Under the pieces are notes generated by a model that saw nothing but the letters and a program-made list of their open reading frames with translations, did not search any database and had not been told where the DNA came from. Below, piece by piece: positions 5,443 to 11,845 of a stretch of DNA of 28,032 bases (the first letter of the stretch is position 1; each line of letters starts with the position of its first letter). Location of the stretch: positions 1 to 28,032 of the IMG/VR virus record IMGVR_UViG_3300009079_000092, one strand, 5' to 3'. Origin of the DNA: a virus. Made by a program: the position numbers and the translations under genes.

Positions 5443-5842
5443 ACCAATAAGTTTAAACCACGCTACAAAAATCTCAACTAGAGGCAAATTTGCCACCAAA
5501 TACAAGACCGAAGCATATAAGCAACTAGAGTCATCCATGGGGAATGCACTAAGAGGTTATAGAAAAGAAATCAACAAATTTAATAATAAATATACAAGCG
5601 GAAAATATTACCTAGTTGCCGAGTATAGGTTCTTTTATCCAATACTTTTAAAATCTGGTGATGCGATTTCAAAGAAATCTAAAGACGTTTCTAATTTAAC
5701 AAAAGTTGTGGAAGATATTTTGTTTAAACAAATAATGGCTGACGATGCCGAAGTCATTTCTTTGACAGTTACAAAAATTCACAGCAAAGATATTAGAACC
5801 GAAATAATACTTGAGCTGAAAGATCTCAGACATATTCTTTAA
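5411..5842 (+). CDS. rusA: RusA-like Holliday junction resolvase
   Basis: 143 residues, close to the usual 120-145 of the family. The catalytic signature is present: D92 in KKSKDVSNLTKVVEDIL with the asparagine-leucine and K98, D102 ten residues on, and the D111-D112 pair in MADDAEV. RusA homodimers cut four-way junctions symmetrically, here probably clearing branched replication or annealing intermediates before packaging. The start lies inside the exonuclease gene, overlapping it by 32 bases. AAGG is a weak ribosome-binding site for it, so coupling to the upstream gene is likely. Confidence 0.85.
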   Translation: MKLEISLPNIEPISLNHATKISTRGKFATKYKTEAYKQLESSMGNALRGYRKEINKFNNKYTSGKYYLVAEYRFFYPILLKSGDAISKKSKDVSNLTKVVEDILFKQIMADDAEVISLTVTKIHSKDIRTEIILELKDLRHIL

Positions 5843-5878
5843 TTTTACTTTACACGACTTAGTTGAAACAATTACTGC

Positions 5879-6268
5879 ATGAGTAAAACACAAGGCACTG
5901 CAAGTGAAATATTATTTCGCTATTTATGCTTAAAGAAAGATGTAGTTGCATCCACGCCAGATGTTGACAATGGTTGCGGCTTTGATGTTATCACCTCATA
6001 TAATGGCAAATTATTAAAAGTTCAAATCAAAAGCACTACCTATAAAGAAAAAAATGGATACAGAGCAATGGCGTCTCATGGGTCTAATGGAAAGAAAAGC
6101 TATACAAAAAATCATTGTGATATTATTGCTGTTCACATAGTAGATATTAATACTTGGTACTTAATACCAATAGAAGAAATAAAAGCTAAGATAATAAAGC
6201 TATACCCCGATAAATTAAACCATAGATATTCAAAATATAAATCTGCATGGCATCTATTAGCAAGCTAA
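5879..6268 (+). CDS. PD-(D/E)XK nuclease-like protein
   Basis: 129 residues. The motif order E10 (helix GTASEILFRYL), D36 (GFDVITS), then Q49-x-K51 (LLKVQIKST) is that of PD-(D/E)XK nucleases of the Holliday-resolvase-like 'PDDEXK_5' type; the C-terminal strand and helix DIIAVHIVDINTWYLIPIEEI also fits. It is the last gene of the rightward operon. No good ribosome-binding site precedes the ATG, unlike the neighbours, and a 36-base gap follows rusA. So it may have its own weak signal or depend on readthrough. A second nuclease beside RusA suggests different substrates. Confidence 0.72.
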   Translation: MSKTQGTASEILFRYLCLKKDVVASTPDVDNGCGFDVITSYNGKLLKVQIKSTTYKEKNGYRAMASHGSNGKKSYTKNHCDIIAVHIVDINTWYLIPIEEIKAKIIKLYPDKLNHRYSKYKSAWHLLAS

Positions 6269-6392
6269 AATAGGTCTGATCTGACTGTTCCGTTAGTATT
6301 CTAAATTGCTTGATGCCATATCACCAAAAGCCTCTAATGCCATCCGTGGCACTAGAGACAATCGGGAGTAATCAAGTGGAATTAAACCTATT
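6269..6392. ncRNA. Structured RNA candidate / convergent-terminator region
   Basis: The gap between the converging early and late operons folds into nested helices by eye. Outer: AATAGGT (6269-6275) with ACCTATT (6386-6392). A side hairpin: CTGAC (6281-6285) with GTTAG (6292-6296), including a G-T pair. Middle: AATT and CTTGAT (6304-6314) with ATCAAG and AATT (6371-6383). Inner: CTCTA/TAGAG and TGCCA/TGGCA (6332-6357) closed by a TCCG loop of the stable UNCG class. There is no T-run after the inner hairpin on either strand, so it is not a plain intrinsic terminator. Which strand is transcribed is unknown. It may be a small RNA, a 3'-end stabiliser for both operons, or simply a bidirectional stop. 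Confidence 0.4.
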
Positions 6393-6777
6393 CAGATTTA
6401 ATGCCAAATTGTGAATGTATTGAGAGGTGAATGTGAGGGGCATTCCCTATGTGAAAATAAGCCAATCTTTTTTGACCGCCACTAGATAAATAATGGAATC
6501 TTTTATATTCTGTTTTGTTGTTTATGTAGTTAACAAGCTCAGAAATTAAAAATGGATCTAAATCTTTTGTTCTAATGTCTATAGCTCTACATTCTCTGTG
6601 TGAGCTTGAAGTTCTATTTAATTTTTTATCTTCCGCTAGCGTTGAAATAGTTTCTGTAATTGTAAGGTCTACAAAGTGCCTTGATTTAGCATACCAATTT
6701 AAGTCTGCGTAAATCATGATAAGAATTGGATGCAATGAAGTGAATAATAGCATGTCTTTCTCGTGTTTAAAGTTCAT
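6388..6777 (-). CDS. Endolysin candidate, M15-like peptidoglycan peptidase
   Basis: 129 residues, a single domain of the size usual for L-alanyl-D-glutamate or D-Ala-D-Ala peptidases of phages. The zinc site is visible as S-S-S-H60-R-E-C-R-A-I-D67 (the SxHxxgxAxD motif) and a later H-I-H-L pair (H115, H117). It starts with the 'T.TETISTLAEDKKLNRTSSSH' layout common in M15 endolysins. No signal peptide is present, so release depends on a holin. It is the last gene of the late operon, away from the other lysis genes at about 10-11 kb. Its stop lies inside the outer helix of the structured region. The enzyme probably cuts cross-links or stems in the host cell wall. Confidence 0.75.
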   Translation of the reverse strand: MNFKHEKDMLLFTSLHPILIMIYADLNWYAKSRHFVDLTITETISTLAEDKKLNRTSSSHRECRAIDIRTKDLDPFLISELVNYINNKTEYKRFHYLSSGGQKRLAYFHIGNAPHIHLSIHSQFGIKSE

Positions 6778-7079
6778 TATGGATTTTTGTATAATCTAAC
6801 AATGATGTGATAATCCGTAAAATCCTGAGCATTCGCCACCTTTCCACCAGAGGTTAAAAACAACATTGAAGTTCCTGCCGTGCTTGAAACAATACTCACG
6901 TTAGTGAGGTTACCAGCTGGAGAGAAGATTGCTAACCCACTATTCAAACTGCATTTCAAAATATTAAGGCTAGCATAAAACCCAGCTGGAACTGTATATA
7001 TATCACCCGTGCCTACTGTAGTTATACCAGTGAGAGCAAATATATCTACTAATTGTTCGCCGCCGTAAAAAGTACTCAT
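6777..7079 (-). CDS. Small tail/virion structural protein
   Basis: 100 residues, beta-rich with many Ser, Gly and Thr. The segment GDIYTVPAGFYASLNILKCS resembles the 'Y.VPaGk.a.i..i.i.N' opening seen in small phage receptor-binding or decoration domains. Start preceded by GAGGAATAA; the stop overlaps the endolysin start in TAATG. It lies between the tail hub with its following structural gene and the endolysin, so a tail-tip accessory or receptor-binding role is likely. No family named with confidence. Confidence 0.55.
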   Translation of the reverse strand: MSTFYGGEQLVDIFALTGITTVGTGDIYTVPAGFYASLNILKCSLNSGLAIFSPAGNLTNVSIVSSTAGTSMLFLTSGGKVANAQDFTDYHIIVRLYKNP

Positions 7080-7089
7080 ATTTATTCCT

Positions 7090-7629
7090 CTAGTTTATGG
7101 GTCTATAAAACAAATTAAGACCGCTATTAAATCCGCTTATCATAGCAGTATTAAGTTTTAGGTATAAAGATTCGCCCTCAAGAAAAGTTGTCTTTGCAAA
7201 TGTTGGCAAAACTGTTCCTGCTGGATTAACCTCTGTATTTGTTACTAAGTTTTTAAAAGCTGAAACTTGGCTTGTTGCTGTGACTTTTGGTGTTACAATA
7301 AAAATGCTTCCCTGATCAACACCATTGACATCAATCCAATTTATATCAAATTCAGTTGTTCCACTTACACCGCTTTGATTCCAAAAGTTAACGCCTGTTA
7401 TTTCCGAGTTAAAAAAGAAAGCAGTGACACCATCATAAAAATTAAGACCAGTTGCAACGCCGTATGATCCATTTAAAACCCACCTATGCGAATCAACTTG
7501 ATAGGTGTTTATAAAATTATTTTGAGCAGCAACACGAGTAAAAACAGCCTCACTTATAGCGGCTTTATAACGCACATCACCAACTCTTAATTCTTCTCTT
7601 GATGGTATAACTAAATCACTATCAGCCAT
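7090..7629 (-). CDS. Structural protein, probable tail-tip or receptor-binding component
   Basis: 179 residues with alternating strands and few charged helices, rich in Asn, Thr, Gly and aromatic residues (FYDGVTAFFFNSEITGVNFW). The first 30 residues (SDLVIPSREELRVGDVRYKA) are more polar and could be an attachment segment. It directly follows the tail hub gene in the late operon. Nothing catalytic is visible. Assignment is from composition and position only. Confidence 0.5.
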   Translation of the reverse strand: MADSDLVIPSREELRVGDVRYKAAISEAVFTRVAAQNNFINTYQVDSHRWVLNGSYGVATGLNFYDGVTAFFFNSEITGVNFWNQSGVSGTTEFDINWIDVNGVDQGSIFIVTPKVTATSQVSAFKNLVTNTEVNPAGTVLPTFAKTTFLEGESLYLKLNTAMISGFNSGLNLFYRPIN

Positions 7630-11082: not shown

Positions 11083-11231
11083 TATTTTTTAGCTCTAAAG
11101 TTAAGATCTCTCTCGTGTAGAACTTTTGCAGTTGCACAGTAATCACCTTTAAACTTATCAAACTCACAATGATTGTATTTCTCTTGCCAGTTTAAAAAAG
11201 ATGCGACAATAATTCCAAATAAAATGCTCAT
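11082..11231 (-). CDS. 49-residue membrane miniprotein in the lysis cluster
   Basis: A short open frame with an AGAAGGG ribosome-binding site eight bases before the ATG. It begins M-S-I-L-F-G-I-I-V-A-S-F-L-N-W, one short hydrophobic helix, then a charged tail with two cysteines (N-H-C-E-F and D-Y-C-A-T). It starts with an ATGA overlap on the AlkB-like gene and ends TAATG on the next gene, so it is tightly built into the operon. Its size is at the lower limit of gene calling. Cysteines in the tail suggest a disulphide in the periplasm, if the tail is outside. Could be a holin, antiholin or small lysis factor. Confidence 0.6.
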   Translation of the reverse strand: MSILFGIIVASFLNWQEKYNHCEFDKFKGDYCATAKVLHERDLNFRAKK

Positions 11232-11845
11232 AATATACCCTTCTTTTTATTTATTAGTATTTGTTTATTCATAAATCTAAAATATTTCTTTGGCATCAGT
11301 GGTAAATAAATATGCATCAAACTTTTAAAATCCACATTATATATAACTGGAAACCTTCCAATTTTTTTTAAGTGGTGTTTTGAATGGTAACCAAGCCCTA
11401 ACATTAAATAATTAAACTTTTTGCCTAAAACATTCCAAGACCATTTAAACTTATCTTTAGTTATACCTTTAAGCGCATAGTGTGACCAGTATTCAAATAT
11501 TTCCCAGTGAAAAGTGAAACTAATTACGATTACAATATAATACCAACCAAAAAAGTATGACATTACAGAAAAAGATAACATATCAAGGATAAAAGATTTT
11601 TTCCCAGCCATTACTCTTCTTTTTAGATGTGTTCTTTTGAAAAACTTGTAAAAACTCTCATTTTTTCTTGCCCAAGAAAAATCGTCTTCGCCCTCTAAGA
11701 AGTTTTTGTGGTGCATCGCATGAAATGGTTTTAAATACCATCCACAAGTAATGATTGAAGTTATCCAGTGTTTATTTCTGTGAATTGCATCATGTTGAAC
11801 ATTCATCATTAATACGCCAACAAAAAAGCTAAGAATAAAATACAT
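11228..11845 (-). CDS. Compact AlkB-like membrane di-iron hydroxylase/desaturase homologue
   Basis: 205 residues, with all the histidine clusters of the AlkB/XylM branch of membrane non-haem di-iron enzymes. Box 1: H18-D-A-I-H22. Box 2: H42-A-M-H45-H46, followed as in AlkB by an acidic 'EDDFSWARKNESFYKF' stretch. The family's NYxEHYG motif appears as F-E118-Y-W-S-H122-Y. Box 3: H154-S-K-H157-H158. Hydrophobic spans lie around residues 1-15 and 89-117. It is about half the length of bacterial AlkB (roughly 400), lacking the first spans. The reaction is probably O2-dependent oxidation of a lipid or alkyl chain in the membrane; substrate and electron donor are unknown, and no rubredoxin is in view. 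AAAGGA precedes the ATG. It overlaps the upstream gene by 17 bases and the downstream gene by ATGA, so it belongs to the late operon. The family is better supported than the activity. Confidence 0.78.
   Translation of the reverse strand: MYFILSFFVGVLMMNVQHDAIHRNKHWITSIITCGWYLKPFHAMHHKNFLEGEDDFSWARKNESFYKFFKRTHLKRRVMAGKKSFILDMLSFSVMSYFFGWYYIVIVISFTFHWEIFEYWSHYALKGITKDKFKWSWNVLGKKFNYLMLGLGYHSKHHLKKIGRFPVIYNVDFKSLMHIYLPLMPKKYFRFMNKQILINKKKGIL

Follow-up and report, generated by a model that had tools for sequence, protein, structure and literature searches.

A hairpin with a conserved loop motif of CsrA/RsmA type at the convergence of late and early operons in an uncultured phage lineage

The question raised by this locus is whether the short gap between two converging phage operons holds a structured RNA and, if so, from which strand it is made and what it might do. 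The window, that is the whole stretch of DNA analysed, is a complete IMG/VR virus record of 28,032 bases. Early-type genes lie on its plus strand from position 1873 to a PD-(D/E)XK nuclease gene at 5879-6268, and its minus strand encodes the structural genes, with capsid and tape-measure genes, the last of the series being an endolysin-like gene at 6388-6777; we assign the labels early and late by gene content. Between the converging stop codons lies a gap of 119 nt (6269-6387). A preliminary description had seen here a branched RNA of four helices, possibly a small regulatory RNA or a dual 3′-end protector, in a gap without a gene. Indeed no open reading frame of at least 50 aa is found in 6269-6387, and the outermost (closing) stem of the proposed fold does include the stop codon of the endolysin-like gene. 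The features of the junction are as follows.

5879 to 6268, plus strand: converging early gene, PD-(D/E)XK endonuclease (PF11645, E = 1.7e-12)
6249 to 6317, minus strand: possible second stem in the fold, GGCAUC (6317-6312) with GAUGCC (6254-6249)
6293 to 6327, minus strand: downstream flank, 35 of 35 positions identical to the nearest relative L002 in the alignment
6322 to 6329, minus strand: tail TTTTGGTG after the 13-bp stem, five T of eight, a weak-to-moderate terminator tail
6324 to 6365, minus strand: core hairpin with a 4-bp base, a 2x2 internal loop, a 13-bp apical stem and a CGGA loop, -25.2 kcal/mol
6330 to 6359, minus strand: 13-bp apical stem–loop, from the scan for terminator-like sites and the pair count against L002
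6341 to 6348, minus strand: loop motif CACGGAUG (CANGGANG; CsrA/RsmA-type A(N)GGA, after PMC8450108, PMC4066749 and PMC7366521)
6364 to 6375, minus strand: upstream flank TTGATTACTCCC, 12 of 12 positions identical to L002 in the alignment
6388 to 6777, minus strand: last late gene, endolysin-like, 129 aa; the name is that of the preliminary description, and the resemblance to LAS/M15 peptidases is weak

The Pfam domain M15_3 is matched by one of six members of the endolysin-like family (E = 0.15) and the Hedgehog N-domain by two of the six (best E = 0.0096), the window's own protein matching neither; a comparison of the endolysin-like protein with solved structures gave no credible match. Two scans of species genomes found no prophage or relative. 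Among cultured phages, DNA searches returned only short matches at chance level, and searches with the endolysin-like protein and an 808-aa protein found no relative; the capsid, tape-measure and terminase proteins have distant cultured-phage matches, which come without host information. A clear Shine–Dalgarno core precedes 15 of 41 starts and is not decisive for the host. The record contains no tRNA or tmRNA in our search and no second copy of the junction element. Two other findings may be mentioned in passing: a fatty-acid-desaturase domain (PF00487, E = 9e-14) at 11228-11845 amid the structural operon, and a phosphoadenosine phosphosulfate reductase gene at 3536-4753 of the relative L041 (phrog_2302, E = 2e-81).

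Folding bears out the claim of structure beyond chance. Region 6269-6392 has a minimum free energy (MFE) of -30.5 kcal/mol on the plus strand (z = -2.32, with 3 of 200 shuffles as good) and of -39.1 kcal/mol on the minus, late-gene strand (z = -3.92, 0 of 200). Taken alone, the core hairpin at 6324-6365 has z = -6.0 when read from the minus strand and z = -3.7 when read from the plus strand. Unbranched and 42 nt long, it lies 22 nt beyond the stop of the endolysin-like gene. Its inner stem runs unbroken over 13 bp on the minus strand, since G.U pairs there take the place of two A.C mismatches seen on the plus strand; the latter strand keeps 11 of the 13 pairs and shows the loop motif as UCCG. 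All helices named in the preliminary description are present in the plus-strand MFE fold, namely a 7-bp closing stem, a 5-bp side hairpin, a 7-bp middle stem and an inner stem of two 5-bp halves with the UCCG loop. However, by manual reading of the window–L002 alignment the closing stem and the side hairpin do not form in L002, and so two of the four helices are not kept; in the middle stem a changed pair survives in L002 as no more than a minus-strand wobble, likewise by manual reading. Nor does the plus strand appear to be the acting strand, since the minus strand folds better and the G.U pairs place the stem on it. Because of the strand asymmetry and the missing conservation we reject the branched plus-strand fold. 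The junction structure is real, its main part is on the minus strand, and it is simpler than first described.

An attC-like or other DNA-hairpin function was also considered and rejected, as the G.U pairs argue for RNA. Rfam gave no match at the window locus, including E values up to 10 for 6200-6450, and none in the loci of six relatives at E up to 1. The GAUGCC arm of the possible second stem falls within the end of the converging nuclease gene, and the pairing recurs in the fold of L002, without covariation. We observe in addition that the conserved flank 6293-6327 is non-coding and might form base pairs with the terminal part of the nuclease gene.

The nearest relative L002 (contig IMGVR_UViG_3300027861_000223) has the gene order of the window. 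The two share 83% identity in the endolysin-like protein and 89% in the nuclease; at the third codon positions of the two genes the identity is 61% and 67%, respectively, whereas the flanks of the hairpin (12 positions upstream, 35 downstream) are unchanged throughout. When the register of the 13-bp stem is set by hand from the loop, MAFFT having misplaced the stem, eight pairs are changed on both sides, one on one side and four are unchanged, and none is broken. Compensatory changes in relatives, for which the preliminary description had itself proposed to look, are therefore present. The arms of the two hairpins differ nearly throughout and yet both consist of 13 bp and an NGGA loop; on the complementary strand 11 (window) and 10 (L002) of the 13 pairs stand. 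Because the arms were rewritten without a broken pair and the complementary strand pairs fewer, the structure must be constrained, and constrained on the late strand. An exact 33-mer of the downstream flank occurs among the IMG/VR records only in the contig of L002. Further upstream, the 100-aa protein encoded at 6777-7079 is 42% identical to its counterpart in L002 and that of the next gene (7090-7629) 98%, which points to a fast-changing gene.

Searches with the endolysin-like, the tape-measure and the 808-aa proteins found further relatives and gave 11 junctions in all (window, L002, L003, L004, L008, L019, L025, L026, L029, L033 and L034). Two loci were left aside: L014, where late and early genes overlap so that there is no junction, and the distant L037, in which the motif was not found. 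In this set, whose rows are partly dependent (window/L002, L025/L026/L029 and probably L033/L034 are related groups), CANGGATG is located at the hairpin tip in 5 of 11 junctions (window, L002, L003, L004, L033) versus 0.006 expected from dinucleotide shuffles. Adding L034, CANGGANG lies in the apical loop in 6 of 11 (0.022 expected), and adding L008, ANGGA lies in a junction hairpin in 7 of 11 (0.28 expected). The complementary strand of the 11 junctions carries the motif hairpin in none. The motif idea had been fixed from the window, L002, L003 and L004 before the seven further junctions were read, and among these seven the strict CANGGANG hairpin is present in two (L033, L034), with a summed expectation of 0.012. 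The individual loops are ACAAGGAUGU in L002, UCAUGGAUGA in L003 and L004, UCAAGGAUGA in L033 and UCAGGGAAGA in L034.

In the remaining junctions CANGGANG is displaced in three, reduced to plain AAGGA in one and absent in one. The near-identical L025 and L026 as well as L029 have no motif hairpin in their 56-nt junction; a homologous hairpin, with GAACACGGAUGCUC or GAGCAUGGACGCUC in a longer stem, lies some 0.5 kb beyond the junction, between early genes. In L025/L026 the other strand of this hairpin folds better (-18.2 vs. -16.8), and overall seven of nine hairpins with CANGGANG fold better on the late strand. L008 has AAGGA alone, in a weak 8-bp hairpin overlapping the ribosome site of the next gene (L008 17353), and L004 carries a second CAAGGATG just upstream of the next gene's start (L004 6551). 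L019 has an ordinary UUUCGG-type terminator hairpin (UUUC-type loop) instead of the motif hairpin. The MFE folds of the 11 hairpins place ANGGA at the tip in ten, L019 being the one without. L033 (12896-12977) and L034 (4399-4464) share a common leader GAGATG..TCTCGTCCTCC and the same loop class, and their arms are unrelated, so that here, too, one stem has been replaced by another. In L025, L026, L029, L033 and L034 an apparently non-coding stretch of about 150 nt behind the endolysin-like gene resembled a homologue, but on manual inspection it reads as a short open reading frame and was rejected.

For covariation we used 10 rows (9 distinct), which exclude L019 as lacking the motif and were chosen partly by the loop-adjacent pairs. 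Over the five apical pairs 86.7% of the cells are paired, and 12 cells are changed on both sides compared to a shuffled mean of 3.6, a count reached in 0 of 500 shuffles. The covariation score of 0.678 (0.142 in the shuffled rows) collapses when the pairing is slid by 1 to 3 columns. The loop-adjacent pairs (C-G, A-U) hardly vary across these rows. In the 10-row alignment A6, whose rows were selected partly for the motif, CA..UG surrounds NGGA in 7 of 10, CANGGANG is present in 9 of 10 and ANGGA in all 10, on stems that are unrelated. Is such a loop then common in these genomes? A background scan over 257,465 bases of 19 phage loci, which requires an unbroken 7-bp stem and so does not include the two-part hairpins of most relatives, found ANGGA in the loop or closing pair of 8 of 446 hairpins of at least 7 bp; among terminator-like hairpins it was 1 of 46, the window's own, and the other 45 have other loops. 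Thus, the loop is not a general habit of the hairpins of these genomes. The hairpin is conserved in structure, in strand and in its loop, and the CsrA/RsmA-like motif common to the relatives, which did not figure in the preliminary description, is its most informative feature.

We turn to the end of the transcript. The 13-bp stem has TTTT behind it on the minus strand, and the window hairpin satisfies a simple terminator consensus; the T-run said to be missing from the gap is missing on the plus strand only. In the region 5600-7100 there are three terminator-like sites including the window hairpin versus 0.7 in shuffles. In most relatives the U tracts after the hairpin are weak, with 1-5 T of 8, counts that are rough since the L019 tail was read from a point several bases too far downstream and some other tails lie 1-2 bases off the stem; L033, L029 and L008 have poor tails. 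We infer that late-operon transcription probably ends at or near the hairpin, and weakly so in several relatives. The earlier idea of a 3′-end protector fits the late strand. A separate small RNA of about 120 nt is conceivable, but no promoter rises above chance, 7 promoter-like sites comparing with 7.0 in shuffles.

We tentatively favor, as quite possible, a 3′-end hairpin of the late mRNA, terminator-like in the window, which carries a putative docking loop of CsrA/RsmA type. The hairpin would form in the minus-strand transcript of the late genes for structural and lysis proteins, at its 3′ end. Late transcription would end at or near it (in the window a short U tract comes next), so that the hairpin caps the 3′ end. 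A host protein of the CsrA/RsmA family, which we infer solely from the loop motif, might then dock on the loop. Docking could stabilize or regulate the late mRNA, or it could draw CsrA/RsmA away from host messages. Titration is conceivable because late mRNA is abundant; a single ANGGA site per transcript, however, makes a poor sponge. We regard as unlikely the bolder proposal that this uncultured lineage ends its late transcripts with a decoy hairpin which titrates the global regulator of the host, selection acting on the loop while the stem sequence turns over and the flood of late mRNA binding up the regulator. If true, it would be an RNA counterpart to the phage-coded RsmA proteins.

A simpler possibility is a plain intrinsic terminator or 3′-end stabilizing hairpin in which NGGA merely reflects a structural preference for a tetraloop and no protein partner is involved. 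The location where the late operon ends and the early one runs towards it, the flagging of the window hairpin as terminator-like with its 13-bp stem and TTTT, and the ordinary terminator hairpin at the same place in L019 all speak for it. Yet terminators do not need a fixed loop, and 45 of the 46 terminator-like hairpins have other loops; the tails are poor in the three relatives named above, and CA..UG around NGGA (7 of 10) and CANGGANG (9 of 10) recur on unrelated stems in A6, whose rows were partly motif-chosen. We judge this explanation to be somewhat improbable. The loop could also be read by another RNA-binding protein of phage or host, for late-gene control, antitermination or RNase processing. 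Conservation of the loop while the stem turns over would suit such a protein as well, as would the fact that no csrA gene scores over the cut-off in 10 phage records. The extended stem with its 2x2 internal loop could suit RNase III, which counts in the same direction. On the other hand we know of no protein outside the CsrA family for CANGGANG hairpins, and the 3′-end position argues against antitermination of the late genes; altogether we hold a different reader of the loop to be distinctly unlikely. Very improbable, finally, is the branched regulatory RNA of about 120 nt, possibly from the plus strand, with which the description of this locus began. The plus-strand z of -2.3 and the unusually conserved flanks, which suggest more than a hairpin, are in its favor, whereas the closing stem and the side hairpin are missing in L002, the G.U pairs put the stem on the minus strand and promoters are not above chance.

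If CsrA/RsmA docks on the loop, as we tentatively favor, the 3′ ends of phage late mRNAs would be a new site of action for this protein family and would give phages a new means of influencing the Csr/Rsm pathway. Even without CsrA, the fixed loop between rewritten arms serves well as a marker of some factor that reads the loop at the 3′ ends of late phage transcripts.

How does the hairpin compare with known CsrA/RsmA sites? The longer form of the CsrA site is A/UCANGGANGU/A. It is fully matched in L002, L003, L004, L033 and L034, and the window fits in the core. The A(N)GGA core is present in the window as ACGGA and, in the MFE folds, is exposed in the hairpin loop. A hairpin combined with a ribosome site is an arrangement known for CsrA targets. 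The second CAAGGATG of L004 and the AAGGA loop at the ribosome site of L008 may resemble it. According to PMC8450108, ANGGA is contained in 459 of 827 RsmA-enriched peaks, the optimal CsrA site is ARGGAU, and the Csr/Rsm pathway controls flagella and CRISPR-Cas among others. Similarly, according to PMC4066749 a hairpin of RsmZ-2 with AAGGAU in the loop binds RsmA, and according to PMC7366521 CsrA prefers hairpins in which ANGGA is exposed, such hairpins being offered by decoy RNAs. Phages carrying rsmA/csrA genes are described in PMC8450108 and PMC7366521. We found no paper in the open-licence PubMed Central literature that describes the binding or titration of CsrA/RsmA by an RNA encoded in a phage.

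The phage-coded CsrA/RsmA proteins are alike in that they show phages to act on the Csr/Rsm pathway (PMC8450108 and PMC7366521), and unlike in being protein and not RNA. In the 10 phage records here none scores over the cut-off, with one sub-threshold fragment containing a stop in the record of L019. Like the decoy RNAs CsrB, CsrC and RsmX/Y/Z the phage hairpin could act by offering CsrA sites. The decoy RNAs, however, carry several ANGGA hairpins, whereas the window junction has one strong CANGGATG hairpin and no Rfam match; the single site and the missing match place the phage hairpin outside the CsrB/RsmZ decoy families. With intrinsic, Rho-independent terminators between converging operons it shares the G+C-containing hairpin and the TTTT on the late strand of the window, and it differs from them by the conserved loop, the long two-part stem and the weak U tract in most relatives. 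To the binding hairpins of CsrA/RsmA, as found in RsmZ and in 5′ leaders, it is similar in the apical NGGA loop, mostly closed by A-U and C-G. Unlike these, the candidate site of the phages would be displayed on a long stem, the CANGGANG hairpins having 12-20 pairs altogether, and its place is the 3′ end of a late operon rather than a 5′ leader or dedicated small RNA.
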